A stretch of 64,000 nt of DNA, taken from assembly GCF_001434835.1 (NCBI RefSeq), contig NZ_AZDV01000007.1, forward strand, positions 1 through 64,000, written 5' to 3'. Every line of letters starts with the position of its first letter. Positions within the stretch are counted from its first letter, which is position 1. The notes under the pieces are model-generated. The model saw only the letters and a list, made by a program, of their open reading frames with translations. It was not told the origin of the DNA and did no database searches. This stretch comes from Levilactobacillus acidifarinae DSM 19394 = JCM 15949 (GTDB lineage Bacteria; Bacillota; Bacilli; Lactobacillales; Lactobacillaceae). Shown in pieces: positions 9,410 to 39,527 of this stretch. The position numbers were made by a program, and so were the translations under genes.

Positions 9410-9686
9410 TGAGATTTCGCGGTGAAAAGATGAGTAACGCCGCCGACCGTGCCAAGAGAACCCCTGGGTGATGTGAAGGGGTGACGGTCCAAGCGTGAAG
9501 AATGGTCTTTGAGCGATATACCGGTGAGCCTTAAGGTTAAGCGGTATTGGTCTGGTTCCCATTATCGAACCCGAGTATAGCTATGGCTGTACTTAGTGAG
9601 TTATCTGGCGTGAGCTGGGTAAAAATTAAGGTGGTACCGCGAGATTATTCGCCCTTGACTAAGAGATTAGTCGAGGGCGATTTTTT
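9410..9686 (+). promoter_or_regulatory. T-box leader (probably tRNA-Met)
   Basis: A tRNA-sensing T-box. Stem I contains the GACCGT/ACGGTC helix and an apical GGGTGATGTGAA loop. The specifier side reads GTGAAGAATGG, where ATG followed by a purine would make it methionine-specific; other frames (GAA, TGG) are less likely given the neighbours. The T-box proper AAGGTGGTACCGCG lies at 9628-9641. The terminator stem TCGCCCT/AGGGCGA with GACTAA/TTAGTC runs 9649-9680, then six T. The next gene starts almost 600 bases further on, beyond the repeat array. Confidence 0.85.
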
Positions 9687-9700
9687 GTATCAGAGTGCGT

Positions 9701-10174
9701 CCAGGGGCGGTCAGCGGGCGAGCATTAAGGCCAATAGTGGATTTATCCCCGGGCTTAGGGGATGAATTCACTATTGGGATTAAGCGGAGCCCGTTGCCCC
9801 TGGTAAGCACGTTTCGACGGCCGCAGATGACGCTAGTATCAGGGCAAGACACTATCACTTACAAGTAATCGCTGGAGAAAGGCTAATTGCTCAATCGGGG
9901 TTAAGCGGAGCCAGTTGCCCGTCAGGAGCACGTTTCAGCGGCCGCGGATAACGCCAGTCTAGAGGAAAGGACGAGCAGTCAATGACCAGTGTTCTATTGG
10001 GATTAAGCGGAGCCCGTTGCCCCTGGTAAGCACGTTTCAGTGGCCGCAGATGGCGCTAGTCTAGGGCCGAGAAACCAACACTTGCTAGCAATGATCAGTG
10101 TTCTAGTGGGGTTAAGCGGAGCCGGTTGCCCGTCAGGAGCACGTTTCAGCGGCCGCAAATGACGCCCCTCTCAG
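9701..10174 (+). repeat. tandem array of a structured repeat, four units
   Basis: Four units share the core TTAAGCGGAGCC (9780-9791, 9901-9912, 10003-10014, 10112-10123), then GTTGCCC and GCACGTTTC. Units 1 and 3 match each other (GCCCGTTGCCCCTGGTAAGCACG-type tail) and units 2 and 4 match each other (GTTGCCCGTCAGGAGCACG-type tail), so a dimer of about 210-220 bases was duplicated. Unit 1 has an extra 5' module with GAGCATTAAGGCC (9720-9732) and an 18-bp hairpin (9733-9775, loop GGGCTTA), enclosed by CCAGGGGC (9701-9708) pairing GCCCCTGG (9796-9803). Later units also carry small hairpins before the core (for example AACACT/AGTGTT). The family is not one I recognise. The related array lies at 22887-23106. 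Confidence 0.8.
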
Positions 10175-10279: not shown

Positions 10280-11398
10280 ATGCCAGTACAAACACAAGTG
10301 AAGTATCCAAACCGTTTCGATATTGTCGGGAGTTTCTTACGTCCCGCCCGGCTCAAGCGGGCCCGGGCCGATTTCGCCGCGGGAAAGCTCGACCAAGCGG
10401 GCTTAACCGAAGTAGAGGACGATGAGATTAAACGGTTGGTGGCCAAGGAAGTCGAGTTAGGCTTGACGGACGTGACCGACGGCGAGTTTCGGCGGAGCTG
10501 GTGGCACCTCGATTTTCTGGCTGGCCTGACCGGCGCCGACTTCTTTACCCCGGATCACGGGTTCATCTTTAACGGTCAGGAAACACGCAAGGGTGGCATC
10601 CGCATTACCGGAAAGGTTGGGTATAATCCGAACCATCCGTTCTTTAAGGGGTTCGAGTTCCTAAACAACCTGGTGCCAGCCAACGTAACCGCTAAGCAAA
10701 CCATTCCCAGTCCGTCGGTCCTATTCCCCAACGAAGATGCCGAGATTTACGATGAGTATTACCATCACGATTTCAACGCGTTCTTAGCCGATGAGATTCA
10801 GGCTTACCAGGCCACCATTCAGCACTTTTACGACCTGGGCTGTCGGTACCTCCAACTCGACGATACGTCCTGGGGGATGTGGGCTAGCTTTTCCGACAAG
10901 GTGATCAACCCCGATTTAAAACCGTTATGCGAAGCCGCCGTAACCGCCATCAACGCGATTGCCGACAACAAACCGGCCGACCTGACGTTGACCATGCACG
11001 TTTGTCGGGGAAACTACGATTCCAATTGGGCCGGGGCGGGGTCCTACGATCCCGTAGCCGACTACTTAGCCCAGCTACACATCGACGGGTACTTCTTGGA
11101 ATACGACGATGAACGCTCCGGGGGCTTTGAGCCGTTAGCTAAATTGGCGGCGAACGGCCGGGACCAACGCGTGGTCCTCGGATTGGTCACTACCAAGCAA
11201 CCGGCGTTAGAACCCGTGACCACGTTGAAGCAGCGCTTAACCGCGGCCAGCCAGTATTATCCGCTGGATCGGTTGTGTTTATCCCCGCAGTGCGGGTTTG
11301 CCTCGACCGAGGAGGGGAACCATCTGAGCGAAGACGATCAGTGGCAAAAATTGAATTTAGTGGTTCAAACGGCGAAGGCCGTTTGGCCGGAAGCATAG
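10280..11398 (+). CDS. MetE-like (YxjG/YxjH family) cobalamin-independent methionine synthase-type protein
   Basis: The 372-residue protein matches the C-terminal catalytic half of MetE, the YxjG/YxjH group, which transfers methyl groups to homocysteine or a related thiol. Likely zinc ligands are His240 and Cys242 (MHVCRGN), Glu274 and Cys338 (SPQCGF). The N-terminal VGSFLRP and DGEFRR motifs are also kept. The start follows AAGGAGG. It lies between two T-boxes and just before a transsulfuration gene, so a methionine-cycle role fits. The long MetE N-domain is absent, as in the whole subfamily, so the methyl donor is uncertain. Confidence 0.85.
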   Translation: MPVQTQVKYPNRFDIVGSFLRPARLKRARADFAAGKLDQAGLTEVEDDEIKRLVAKEVELGLTDVTDGEFRRSWWHLDFLAGLTGADFFTPDHGFIFNGQETRKGGIRITGKVGYNPNHPFFKGFEFLNNLVPANVTAKQTIPSPSVLFPNEDAEIYDEYYHHDFNAFLADEIQAYQATIQHFYDLGCRYLQLDDTSWGMWASFSDKVINPDLKPLCEAAVTAINAIADNKPADLTLTMHVCRGNYDSNWAGAGSYDPVADYLAQLHIDGYFLEYDDERSGGFEPLAKLAANGRDQRVVLGLVTTKQPALEPVTTLKQRLTAASQYYPLDRLCLSPQCGFASTEEGNHLSEDDQWQKLNLVVQTAKAVWPEA

Positions 11399-11408
11399 AC
11401 GTTCAGGA

Positions 11409-11608
11409 AGAGAGACGCGGCGAACCGTACAGAGAACCTAGGAATTGCTGAGACTAGGTCGGTTAGCCCGTTGAAAATGAGCCTGAGAACACGCGTCACG
11501 GGAGCACTCGTTAACAGCAAATGAGGTTCCGGGAGACCGGAATAAACCTTGGGTGGTACCACGAGCAGTCGTCCCGAGACAACGTCACGTTGTCCGGGGC
11601 GATTTTTT
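11409..11608 (+). promoter_or_regulatory. T-box leader, methionine-specific
   Basis: Stem I is closed by ACGCG/CGCGT (about 11415-11500). The specifier loop reads GAAAATGAG with ATG followed by A, the usual methionine arrangement. The T-box GGGTGGTACCACG is at 11551-11563. The terminator pairs GACAACG with CGTTGTC plus the outer CG(T)CCC/GGGGCG, then six T (11603-11608). It controls the transsulfuration gene and ABC transporter. Confidence 0.9.
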
Positions 11609-15527: not shown

Positions 15528-16228
<701 letters not shown>

Positions 16229-18617: not shown

Positions 18618-19703
18618 ATGCAACGATACTTAGTTTTAGCGGACGGGACCGTTTATCCCGGCACCGGTTTTGGGGCGCCCGCCACGACGATGGGAGAGCT
18701 GGTCTTTAATACGGGGATGAGTGGGTATCAGGAATCCATCACCGACCAGTCCTATAACGGGGAAATCCTGATGTTTACCTACCCGTTGATCGGCAACTAC
18801 GGCATTAACCGCGACGATCACGAGTCGATTCACCCGACATGCCGGGGTGTGGTGGCCCACGAGGTTGCCCGGCGCCCCAGTAACTGGCGCTGTGACGAAA
18901 CGCTGGATGCCTACCTGAAGACTAACGGCATTCCGGGAATTACCGGCATCGATACCCGTGCCGTTACCAAACATATTCGCACGCAGGGCGCCATGCGCGC
19001 GGCCATCGTCGATTCGGTCACGGACGCCGTGCACCAACAACTCCAACGACCGGTTGATCAAACCCATGAAGTCGCCGAGAGTTCGACGGCCAACGCTTAT
19101 CCCAACCCGGCGACCGGGTTGAACGTGGTGGTGGTCGACTTCGGTCTCAAACATTCCATCTTACGCGAACTGGCTAAGCGCCATTGCAACTTGACCGTTT
19201 TACCGTACAACACCACGGCCAGTGAAATTATGGCCCTGAATCCCGATGGTGTGATGTTGACTAACGGGCCCGGCGATCCTAAGGACGTCCCAGGGGCCTT
19301 ACCGATGATTCGCGAGATTGAACAACACGTGCCACTCTTTGGCATCTGTCTGGGCCACCAACTCTTTGCGTTAGCCAACGGCGCCGACACCTTCAAGATG
19401 AAGTTCGGGCACCGCGGGTTCAACCATCCGGTTCGTGACTTACGGACCGGGCGGATCGATTTCACCTCACAGAACCACGGTTACGCGGTCGCCCGCGAGT
19501 CGTTGGCTCAGACCGAGTTGACCGTGACCCACGAGGAGATTAACGATGGGACCGTTGAAGGCTTGCGGCACAATCGCTACCCCGCCTTTTCCGTCCAGTA
19601 TCACCCGGACGCGGCCCCGGGCCCGCACGATGCCGCCCACATTTTTGATGACTTTATTGACTTGATGCACGCCCACCAGACGACGAAAAAGGAGCACAAG
19701 TAA
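18618..19703 (+). CDS. carA: carbamoyl-phosphate synthase small subunit
   Basis: The 361-residue glutaminase subunit supplies ammonia to CarB. The N-terminal domain has the STGMSGYQE-like segment ([16 protein letters not shown]). The class I amidotransferase domain shows TNGPGDP, the nucleophile in FGICLGHQ and the YHPDA His. Its stop overlaps the carB ATG by one base (TAATG), so translation is coupled. Confidence 0.96.
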
Positions 19704-22700
19704 TGCCAAAACGCACGGATATTCATAAGATTATGGTGATTGGGTCCGGGCCGATTATCATCGGTCAGGCCGCGGAATTTGACTACTCGGGGACCCAAGC
19801 GTGCTTGGCGCTAAAGGAACTGGGTTACCAGGTGGTACTGGTCAACTCGAACCCGGCGACGATTATGACCGATAAAGAAATTGCCGATCGAGTTTACCTG
19901 GAACCCATCACGTTGGAATTTGTGTCACAGATTTTACGCAAGGAACACCCCGACGCCATCTTACCCACGTTGGGCGGCCAGCAGGGGTTGAACATGGCCA
20001 TGGAACTTTCTAAGTCGGGCATCTTAGACGAGCTGAAGATTGAGCTATTGGGGACCAAGCTTAGTGCCATCAACCAGGCCGAGGACCGTGAGCAGTTCAA
20101 GGAACTGATGGAACAACTGGGCGAACCGGTCCCGGCGTCGAGTAGCGCAACGACGGTGGCCGAAGCCGTGGCCTTTGCCCAACGGGAAGGGTACCCGGTC
20201 ATCGTCCGGCCGGCCTTCACCATGGGCGGCACCGGTGGTGGCATCGCCAACAATGAAGCGGAATTACGCACCATTGCCGAAAATGGTCTGTCGTTATCGC
20301 CGGTCACCCAGGTCTTAATCGAGCAAAGTATTGCCGGCTATAAGGAAATTGAGTTTGAAGTCATGCGCGACGCCGCGGATCACGCGTTGGTGGTTTGTGG
20401 CATGGAGAATTTCGACCCCGTGGGGATTCACACCGGGGACTCCATCGTTTACGCGCCGATTCAAACGTTAGCGGACCGCGAAGTTCAGATGCTGCGGGAT
20501 GCGGCCCTGCGGATTATTCGGGCGTTAAAGATCGAAGGGGGCTGTAACGTCCAACTGGCCCTTGACCCACAGAGTTTTCGGTATGACGTGATTGAGGTGA
20601 ACCCGCGGGTCAGCCGCTCGTCGGCGTTGGCCTCCAAGGCGACGGGTTACCCGATTGCCAAGATGGCGGCCAAGATTGCCGTGGGCTTACACCTCGACGA
20701 ACTGAAAAATCCGGTCACCGGGACCACCTACGCGCAATTCGAGCCGGCCTTAGACTACGTAGTCTGCAAGATTCCGCGCTGGCCGTTTGATAAATTCACC
20801 CAGGCCGATCGGCGGCTAGGGACTCAAATGAAGGCCACCGGGGAGGTCATGGCGATTGGCCGGAACATCGAAGAGGCGACGCTTAAGGCCGTGCGGTCAC
20901 TGGAAATTGGCGTGCACCACATCATTGAACCGGCCTTGAAGTCGGTCGACCAGGCAACCCTCGAAGATAAATTAGTCCACGCCCAAGACGACCGGTTGTT
21001 TTATTTGGCCGAAGCCTTACGCCGCGGTTACTCGCTGGAACGGCTCCATGTCTTGACTCAGATCAACGTTTTTTTCCTGGATAAGCTCTTACACATCGTC
21101 GAACTGGAACGGGACCTCAGCGCCCACGTCAACGATCTAGCGGTCCTGACCATCGCTAAGCGCAACGGGTTCGCCGACGCGACGGTGGCTGACCTTTGGC
21201 ACGAGACACCGGACCAGGTCCGAACCTTCAGAGAAACCCATCACCTGACGCCAGTTTACAAGATGGTCGACACCTGTGCCGGGGAATTTGCCTCCAGTAC
21301 CCCGTACTTCTATGGCACCTATGAACTGGAAAACGAAAGCGTCGTTAGCAACAAGCCGTCCGTATTGGTATTAGGATCGGGTCCGATTCGCATCGGCCAA
21401 GGGGTGGAGTTCGATTACGCCACGGTGCACTCGGTTAAGGCGATTCAAAAGGCCGGTTACGAGGCCATCATCATGAACAGCAATCCCGAGACCGTATCGA
21501 CCGACTTTTCCATCTCCGATAAGCTGTACTTCGAACCGCTAACGCTCGAAGACGTGTTGAACGTGGTCGAATTGGAACGTCCCCTGGGGGTCATCGTTCA
21601 GTTTGGCGGCCAGACCGCAATTAACCTGGCGGCCCCGTTAGAACGCCACGGGGTTAAGATTCTGGGAACTAGCGTGGCCGACGTTAACCGGGCCGAAGAC
21701 CGTGACGCCTTTAATCGGGTCATCGAAGACCTGCAGATTCCCCAACCGGCGGGGGATACGGCCAGCGACGAGGCCACGGCCTTAGCGATTGCCGACCGGT
21801 TGGGGTACCCCGTGTTGGTGCGGCCCAGCTACGTGTTAGGGGGACGGGCCATGGAAATCGTGACCCAACGCGCCGACCTCGACCATTACATGCATAACGC
21901 GGTCCAGGTCTCCCACGACCACCCGGTTTTGATCGACCGGTATTTGGTGGGTAAGGAATGTGAAGTCGATGCAATCTGTGACGGGGAAACGGTGCTGATT
22001 CCGGGCATCATGGAACACATCGAACGGGCCGGGGTCCACTCCGGTGATTCGATGGCGGTCTACCCGCCGCAATCGTTGTCGGTGGCGGTCCAGAAACAAA
22101 TCGTCCGGTACACGGAACAACTGGCTAAGGCGTTGAATTGCATTGGGATGATGAACATTCAATTCGTGATTCACGACGAGCAGGTTTACGTGATCGAGGT
22201 GAACCCCCGGGCCAGTCGAACGGTGCCCTTCTTGAGTAAGGTCACCGATATCTCGATGGCCCAGGTCGCCACCCGGGTCATTTTAGGGCAGTCCTTACGC
22301 GACCAGGGTTACCATAACGGGTTGGTGCAACCGGGAGCGCTGGTACACGTCAAGGCACCGGTCTTCTCGTTTTCTAAGCTCAACCGGGTGGATAGCCTGC
22401 TGGGACCGGAAATGAAGTCGACCGGTGAGGTCATGGGTAGCGATCGCACGTTGGCCAAGGCCCTCTACAAAGCCTTCGAAGCCGCCAAGTTGCACGTGCC
22501 AAGTCACGGTAACGTCTTGATTACCGTCCGCGATGCGGATAAACCGGAAGCTGTTAAATTAGCGCGCCGGTTCCATAACTTGGGGTACCAGCTGTTAGCC
22601 ACGCCAGGAACGGCGGCCTGTTTGACAAACAACCAGTTACCCGTACGGATTGTGGACAAGATTGCGACCGGTGAGCACGACTTGTTGCAACAAATGGAAG

Positions 22701-22879
22701 CCGGTCAGATTCAGGTGGTCATCAACACGATTTCGGACGAGGGCCATGCGGCCGACGACGGCGCGGTGATCCGCAACACGTCGATTGCGCACGGGGTGCC
22801 GTTGTTTACGGCGTTGGATACCGTGGCCGCGATCTTGCAAGTGTTGGAATCCAGGTCGTTTGTCACACAGGCCTTGTAA
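19703..22879 (+). CDS. carB: carbamoyl-phosphate synthase large subunit
   Basis: The 1058-residue subunit makes carbamoyl phosphate from bicarbonate, ammonia and two ATP. The two homologous ATP-grasp halves are seen as repeated motifs: [20 protein letters not shown] near the N-terminus and [20 protein letters not shown] near residue 555, each followed by NSNP. A C-terminal MGS-like allosteric domain follows (about 930 on). Length is normal. Operon location and PyrR control mark it as the pyrimidine-linked enzyme. Confidence 0.97.
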
Positions 22880-22886
22880 AAGAGTG

Positions 22887-23106
22887 GGCCCCAAGGCGGT
22901 TAGTCGGTGAGCATTAAGGCCGCTAATCAGATTATCCTGGGCTTGGATAATTTGATTAGCGGATTTAAGCGGAATTGACTGCCTTGGGGGCCACGTTTCG
23001 ACACCAGAGTGGGTGCCTACCGGGGATTAAGCGGAACCGGCTGCCCCGGCTGGCACGTCTCGACACCGGAGTGGGGGCCTAACAGGGATTAAGTGGAATC
23101 GGCTAA
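22887..23106 (+). repeat. second array of the structured repeat, three units
   Basis: Unit 1 carries the full form. An outer stem CCCCAAGGC (22889-22897) pairs with GCCTTGGGG (22981-22989). Inside are GGTGAGCATTAAGGCC (22906-22921), a 16-bp hairpin (22922-22960, loop TGGGCTT) and the core TTAAGCGGA (22965-22973). Units 2 and 3 follow with cores at 23027-23035 and 23089-23097 (the last TTAAGTGGA), a period of 62 bases, each with a CACGT(T/C)TCGACACC tail whose CAC-NNNN-GTG forms a mini hairpin. The array fills the carB-pyrD gap and ends shortly before the pyrD ribosome binding site. Confidence 0.8.
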
Positions 23107-23150
23107 CCTATTTCGGTGAGCGAACGGTCACATATATATAGGAGGAAACC

Positions 23151-39279: not shown

Positions 39280-39527
39280 ATAGAGGTTGCAACCAACATG
39301 AGTATCTCCGTGAGTTCCTGTATGAACGCTGACCGGGGAGAAAGGGACGGTTGCCGAAGCGCTAGGGGATACAGAACCTAGTGAGCTGGGACGGGTCACC
39401 AAGAGGACCCGAACTGTCGTAGCAAAAAATAGTCGGCTACGGGGCGCTTACGACGATAAAAGATACAGACTCTGATCAGATCTGGGATCTCTTTGTTTAC
39501 GTGAGCAAACAAAGAGATCCCTTTTTT
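39280..39527 (+). promoter_or_regulatory. lysine riboswitch (L box) with terminator
   Basis: The aptamer starts with the conserved ATAGAGGTTGCAACCAACATGAGTA-type segment (from 39280). GGGGAGAAAGGGACGGTTGCCGAAG and later helices follow to about 39470. A 15-bp terminator (39484-39498 with 39507-39521) is followed by six T. Lysine binding should favour termination before lysA. The class is well known and the core segments are clear by eye. Confidence 0.93.

Follow-up and report, generated by a model that had tools for sequence, protein, structure and literature searches.

A dispersed, structure-conserved repeat at gene 3' ends in Levilactobacillus acidifarinae and its relatives that may act as RNA in mRNA

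Two places in a 64,000-nucleotide stretch of the Levilactobacillus acidifarinae genome (all of which we analysed, and which we call the window) carry arrays of repeats, each headed by a longer unit that can fold back on itself. A first-pass annotation took these lead units for a structured RNA or, alternatively, a family of selected DNA hairpins. Here we ask what the unit is: whether it belongs to a wider family, which nucleic acid strand folds, and how it is placed relative to genes.

We find every named part of the lead units where the first-pass annotation put it, and unit 2 pairs in the same way. The features of the two leads are as follows (helices are numbered P1, P2, P3 and P5; R1 is a covariance model described below).

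9692-9817, + strand: lead element 1, complete unit AGAGTG...CACGTTTCGA (R1 match 111.3 bits, E 4.5e-28, filters off; fold z -9.2)
9695-9698, + strand: P1 5' strand GTGC, paired with GCAC at 9807-9810 (from the sequence; helix 1, the first three pairs, of the covariation test)
9701-9708, + strand: P2 5' strand CCAGGGGC, paired with 3' strand GCCCCTGG at 9796-9803 (sequence, fold)
9709-9712, + strand: 5' bulge of four nt between P2 and P3, GGTC, usual form G-N-T-Y (family alignment)
9713-9719, + strand: P3 5' strand AGCGGGC, paired with GCCCGTT at 9789-9795 (sequence, family alignment, covariation)
9720-9732, + strand: conserved internal strand GAGCATTAAGGCC (sequence, family alignment)
9731-9777, + strand: P5 hairpin with loop GGGCTTA at 9751-9757; its stem pairs are the most variable (fold, pair counts)
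9777-9788, + strand: conserved internal strand GGATTAAGCGGA (motif count, family alignment)
9808-9815, + strand: conserved 3' end CACGTTTC (family alignment)
22881-23001, + strand: lead element 2 (R1 match 118.5 bits, E 4.6e-30), starting one A past the carB stop codon TAA at 22877-22879

Both units begin earlier than first drawn, and the outermost helix, P1 (GTGG/CCAC in lead 2), had been missed. The inner hairpin keeps its proposed loop and position, with 20 paired positions in the fold (arms 9731-9750 and 9758-9777) rather than the 18 bp claimed. Folding energies are -69 kcal/mol for lead 1 and -70.4 kcal/mol for lead 2 (z = -10.5), and for neither did any of 200 shuffles reach the same value. 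When lead 1 is folded alone, RNAfold shifts the bulge one nucleotide later (9710-9713) and pairs the 5' side of P3 over 9714-9719. The full repeat unit, AGAGTG...CACGTTTC, is about 121 nt long. Across 24 copies from the same genome the termini are AGAGTG and CACGTTTC, one copy having CATGTTTC, and the alignment of these copies contains the short GTG/CAC ends.

The leads stand among partial copies, genes and other structured RNAs in the window.

9413-9659, + strand: T-box leader just 5' of lead 1, not part of the element (RF00230, 81.6 bits, E 1.6e-17, under the 93-bit gathering score)
9898-9936, + strand: tail unit 2 of array 1, a copy of the 3' half, GGGTTAAGCGGA...CACGTTTC (sequence, motif count)
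10000-10038, + strand: tail unit 3 of array 1, a 3' half matching that of lead 1 (sequence, motif count, duplex energy)
10109-10147, + strand: tail unit 4 of array 1, 3' half (sequence, motif count)
10280: MetE-like gene (PF01717)
11631: Cys/Met PLP enzyme gene (Pfam)
19703-22879: carB, pyrimidine operon (Pfam)
23024-23061, + strand: tail unit of array 2, 3' half (sequence, motif count)
23086-23108, + strand: second tail of array 2, truncated (sequence, motif count)
23151: dihydroorotate dehydrogenase (pyrD) gene (Pfam)

Allowing at most one mismatch, we count 8 occurrences of the motif GGDTTAAGYGGA in the window where 1.8 are expected, and seven of the eight are repeat units. Computed duplexes suggest that it is possible for one tail to replace the lead's own 3' half in pairing with the 5' half: the tail at 10000 would pair with the 5' half of lead 1 at -40.8 kcal/mol, the same value as the lead's own 3' half (shuffled means are about -28), while the remaining tails of array 1 pair less well, at -31.8 and -33.7 kcal/mol. 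In array 2 the own 3' half gives -41.4 kcal/mol and the tails -30.4 and -20.8 (shuffled means -26.6 and -14.6). The description of the element as the head of a repeat array holds for both leads in the window and is a special case, as many copies elsewhere have no tails. Elsewhere we also see runs of three or four complete units, arranged head to tail and repeating about every 121 bp (locus L158, Liquorilactobacillus satsumensis, at 15861-16225 and 1495-1860; L449 at 1258-1621; L450 at 1501-1980).

The first-pass annotation had staked its claim on there being further copies, and covariance-model searches find many of them in the genome and in relatives. In the 2.9-Mb genome to which the window belongs (30 contigs; the own genome, G000), the pattern GGNTTAAGYGGA is found 37 times and its reversed form 3 times. 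We built R1 from 24 distinct own-genome copies aligned with MAFFT and a second model, R2, from copies of other families. With E allowed up to 0.01, R1 returns 61 own-genome rows; 21 of these are opposite-strand echoes of the same palindromic copies, and their removal leaves 40 distinct places, 34 with at least 68 bits. Match counts for genomes of the genus, family and order, which still include echoes, are as follows. All 35 genus genomes match, G003 and G024 by a single weak row each. Within the family, where at most 11 candidates were scored per genome under stricter filters, 139 of 301 genomes match, in 22 of 40 genera; because the other 162 gave no match under these filters, we take the element to be dispensable. 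Order-wide, 58 of 395 genomes have a match with E no higher than 1e-5: 28 belong to the window's family and 30 to others. A finer search of 18 of those 30, chosen because they had already matched, found 1-29 rows in each of the 18.

Among 80 named carB loci, each only about 12-23 kb, R1 gives 15 rows in 4 loci (Pediococcus acidilactici, Companilactobacillus hulinensis, Paucilactobacillus kaifaensis and Liquorilactobacillus satsumensis) and R2 gives 21 rows in 5 loci, adding Periweissella ghanensis; neither model matches a Streptococcus locus or any locus from outside the order in this set. A blastn search of plasmids and phages with one copy found no match, while a 175-nt composite query found 10 plasmid records at E up to 1 (best E 4e-8). 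Copies lie on a Pediococcus damnosus plasmid (R1 77.9 bits) and on a large Aerococcus tenax plasmid (30.7 bits), and an exact two-motif pattern found none in viral contigs.

The element has no counterpart in Rfam 15 when the window is scanned at gathering scores; the sole match is a lysine riboswitch elsewhere (RF00168, 39273-39457, 83.6 bits), which precedes a reading frame starting at 39501. Relaxing the threshold to E up to 5 gives nothing for the element near array 1, where two T-boxes and a CRISPR repeat appear, and near array 2 gives only two miRNA precursors and a lncRNA, all far under gathering scores. The second of these T-box leaders lies at 11395-11579 (76.2 bits, again under 93), and the default scan misses both T-boxes. 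We found no description of the element in the open-access literature searched. In the excerpted text of PMC2267715, stem-loop families of Lactobacillus johnsonii and Enterococcus faecalis are counted without being named, and the excerpted part of PMC2229807 makes no mention of those families.

The annotation also stood or fell with covariation among such copies, and this lies well above shuffled and slid controls. In the MAFFT alignment of the 24 own-genome copies, which is blind to structure, 22 of 36 pairs have changed on both sides and 97.8% of cells are paired, for a structure that had been predicted from the same alignment. None of 500 shuffles reaches any of five covariation measures, and sliding the partner by 1-3 columns lowers pairing to 29-42%. 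With 101 distinct copies, in an alignment fitted to the structure, both-side change extends to 30 of the 36 pairs; these counts are of sequences rather than independent events and are inflated by related copies. In this covariation beyond controls on a structure-blind alignment, the element behaves as a structured RNA motif would.

Which strand folds can be read from the mismatches that the helices tolerate. Among 3622 cells, G.T and T.G together number 270 and A.C and C.A together 17 (about 16-fold); one conserved wobble pair supplies 72 of the 270, and excluding it leaves about 198 against 17 (12-fold). Because G.T so far exceeds A.C, we conclude that one strand folds, the one that reads GAGCATTAA. 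The core is retained at greater distance: copies in other families (37 rows) mostly keep the ends AGAG-YG and CRCGTTT together with a covarying P1, as well as P2, the G-N-T-Y bulge and P3. At one P1 position they show T-A 16 times, C-G 8, G-C once and no pair 3 times (7 of 35 distinct rows, which have no recognisable 3' end, are omitted). Their interiors, read by eye, often differ, for example CCACTGGAnCGAA / TTCGTGAAGTGG.

We now consider where the copies lie. Our placement set holds 99 copies from 23 genomes (30 from the own genome, 19 from G033, 18 from G034 and 32 from 20 others), obtained from the 118 best-scoring rows by dropping the 17 lowest (opposite-strand echoes, below 58 bits) and 2 that overlapping loci had duplicated. 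These numbers should be read with the composition of the set in mind: three related genomes contribute 67 of the 99 copies, neither orthologous copies nor units of an array count as independent, and gene calling relied on a crude ORF rule. The gene upstream lies on the same strand in 83 of 99 cases, at a median of 9 nt past its stop codon, and 58 copies start between -7 and 25 nt from the upstream stop. By type of gene pair, 48 copies are tandem sense, 35 convergent, 14 tandem antisense and 2 divergent, against 28%, 12%, 28% and 33%, respectively, expected from element-free intergenic length in the same loci. Keeping one copy per similar-flank group (n = 70) leaves a same-strand upstream gene in 57, again with a median of 9 nt, and pair types of 31 tandem sense, 26 convergent, 12 antisense and 1 divergent (sense versus antisense p = 0.005). 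The ratio of tandem sense to antisense is 40 to 6 in G000, G033 and G034, and the remaining 20 genomes, with 32 copies, split evenly at 8 to 8. We regard placement at 3' ends as firm; the sense bias, which comes from these three genomes, may not be general.

The first AG of the element completes a TAG stop codon in seven copies, of which three share an orthologous site. Rows from other families have a same-strand upstream gene in 30 of 37 cases, some being units of one array, and on the annotated P. damnosus plasmid the element starts on the final base of the coding sequence for an ABC transporter. At L437, from another family, the upstream ORF seems to enter the element, stopping at the TAA of GAGCATTAA. 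Lead 1 itself lies between the T-box leader and the MetE-like gene, not behind a stop codon. Within 110 nt downstream, 33 of 99 copies have a terminator-like hairpin; the same holds for 30 of 396 control positions and for 7% of shuffles. By the same strict rule 66 of 99 have no clear terminator there. Complements of at least 11 nt between the element's 5' end and the terminator arm occur in 21 of 99 copies. We do not claim a switch in which the 5' end pairs with a downstream terminator arm, the mean complement being 7.6 against 6.9 for the regions of other copies.

Comparison of orthologous sites shows how the element comes and goes. Between carB and pyrD the matching flanks are 46 bp apart in G034 and 9 bp in G024, against 248 and 265 in the window, and the element is absent; G033 has an unrelated 368-bp stretch there. 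The metE site measures 17 bp in G024 against 578 in the window, and G033 holds the lead without the tails. This G033 ortholog (L269) is nearly identical to lead 1 in its outer parts and differs from it at about five P5 pairs, on both arms, which looks like replacement or conversion of just the hairpin; a special mechanism is not needed, as exchange between copies can account for P5 differences. A weak copy at C5:270178 corresponds to 35 bp in G033 and 72 bp in G034, and at C28:483102 the element is missing from G024 and present in G033 and G034. At C5:274419, nothing but a different terminator is present in G034, other sequence occupies the site in G033, and G024 has a stretch ending in an apparent reverse complement of the element's 3' end, seemingly an antisense remnant. 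At this convergent gene pair (with orthologs L411, L416 and L412) the terminator-like hairpin is unrelated in sequence in each of the four related genomes. The empty sites in relatives identify a dispersed, mobile family, and identical copies are found at different places (L210, L211). One convergent gene pair (L211 in the own genome, L355 and L356 in G010 and G009) seems to hold the element in opposite orientations in different species, which suggests independent insertions. Among the 15 largest clusters of neighbouring proteins, most link orthologous loci or the units of a single locus; two three-member clusters link different loci (L234/L305/L335 and L237/L317/L342). No trans-acting partner emerged from these neighbours or from the search for Y1 transposases described below.

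Taken together, we put slightly better than even confidence in the following reading: a dispersed, structure-conserved repeat of about 121 nt sits at gene 3' ends, folds from one strand and probably acts as RNA in mRNA. Folding of one strand and location at gene 3' ends favour RNA in mRNA 3' ends, without proving it. The element most often sits 0-25 nt past the stop codon of a same-strand gene, with about a third of examined copies directly before a terminator-like hairpin, and is built of a core (P1, P2, the 5' bulge GNTY and P3), a lineage-specific interior and a fast-changing P5. Beyond the sequence, copy number, covariation, strand, placement and empty sites, which we observe directly, the proposal is that the element would be transcribed, that its RNA fold would be what selection or a trans-acting partner sees, and that it might cap the 3' end of the message, for stability or termination, as is thought for REP hairpins. 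A mobilising enzyme would spread it. The first-pass choice between a structured RNA and a selected DNA hairpin family is thereby supported as a whole and narrowed to a dispersed mobile family with a single folding strand, at gene 3' ends.

The strongest competing explanation, which we consider rather unlikely, is that of a purely selfish DNA palindrome akin to MITEs or REPs, whose transposase would recognise a hairpin of single-stranded DNA; mobility alone would then maintain the structure, and 3'-end placement would reflect safe sites or targeting of terminator hairpins. The multi-copy dispersal, identical copies and empty sites described above all suit it. A one-strand DNA hairpin would also yield the G.T bias, and the 8-to-8 split of tandem pairs in the 20 less related genomes is as expected. 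Movement of the IS200/IS605 type is not known to leave a target-site duplication, and we found none: over the 99 copies, left-flank k-mers of k = 4-8 turn up again within 120 nt on the right slightly more often than the permuted mean (20 versus 13.2 of 99 at k = 5), but they never exceed the permuted maximum and share no fixed offset. The 40-to-6 sense bias in G000, G033 and G034, however, speaks against this explanation, as does the distribution of the candidate enzyme. We reject the Y1 transposase as a partner: Y1_Tnp (PF01797) occurs in 23 of 35 genus genomes without tracking the element, and G001, G008, G020 and G033 have none despite 83, 71, 70 and 51 element rows, although these are mostly draft assemblies that may miss insertion sequences.

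A bolder form of the RNA reading, which we judge improbable, is a Lactobacillales-wide mobile RNA module, whose conserved core (P1, a GA/GA-type loop, P2, the GNTY bulge and P3) would be read as RNA by a conserved protein and delivered right behind stop codons by a transcription-linked or RNA-templated process, its interior being exchangeable between lineages and its P5 fast-changing.

Could the covariation arise from mutation alone, through template switching in a quasi-palindrome that copies one arm onto the other? The P5 pairs do differ more than the outer pairs (a mean of 18.5% differ across 350 copy pairs with identical outer pairs), and at metE most differences between the G000 and G033 copies fall in P5, on both arms. 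Yet the GNTY bulge, the GA/GGA loop and the end loop persist instead of being perfected, G.T exceeds A.C even without the conserved wobble, and the outer helices covary across families, all of which makes arm copying a decidedly poor candidate.

A cis-regulatory leader RNA of the downstream gene (riboswitch or attenuator) comes to mind from the window, where both arrays precede biosynthetic genes (MetE-like and pyrD) and one follows a T-box. The downstream gene, however, is on the same strand in 50 copies and on the opposite in 49, a lack of preference that speaks against a leader; position tracks the upstream stop codon instead, and relatives carry the same genes without the element, so that we find this explanation very hard to credit. 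The least credible is a recombination site like attC of integron cassettes: the element is a palindrome of variable sequence and conserved structure lying just behind stop codons, a placement that attC sites share, but its copies are dispersed rather than clustered as cassettes, and the GTTRRRY/RYYYAAC boxes that attC sites carry were not seen by eye at either end in the copies read.

If the repeat does act as RNA in mRNA, the same folded structure, present in some species and absent from others through gain and loss, forms the 3' end of many unrelated genes of lactic acid bacteria, and a single factor could handle many messages. Such a result would name a recurrent, unannotated intergenic sequence and provide a testable link between small mobile repeats and the biology of mRNA 3' ends.

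Among known repeats, the closest kinds are EFAR, BOX and REP. Like MITEs, the element is short (about 121 nt), non-coding and dispersed, at 40 places in the own genome. It resembles REP or BOX in placement or modularity, and the defining features of these that can be tested were not found in it. REP sequences are 20-40 bp long, and the termini of GTAG REPs often supply a TAG stop codon, according to PMC3733652. The element, like the REP/BIME palindromes associated with RAYT transposases, is extragenic, and in seven copies it too supplies a TAG stop, but it is far longer than a REP and shows no dependence on Y1 transposases; the GTAG or CGTC tag was not seen at the ends of the 24 own copies, nor in the related forms that other families carry. 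According to PMC3049150, BOX elements of Streptococcus pneumoniae are modular and palindromic with a variable number of internal units and a predicted RNA fold, are reported with terminal inverted repeats and target-site duplications, and in one case form a composite with T-box leaders. By description, the element is modular too, a lead followed by repeated 3' halves; BOX differs in its target-site duplications, and in the element the repeated modules are 3' halves. EFAR repeats of Enterococcus faecalis are reportedly about 170 bp long and modular, with two stem-loops in an L shape, and inserted at stem-loop sites. Set against these by description rather than by sequence, our element was studied mainly in Lactobacillaceae and is defined by a covarying core and a position behind the stop codon. 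Going by that description and by the one-sentence mention of EFAR among bacterial MITEs in PMC3733652, EFAR may be an enterococcal relative of the element.
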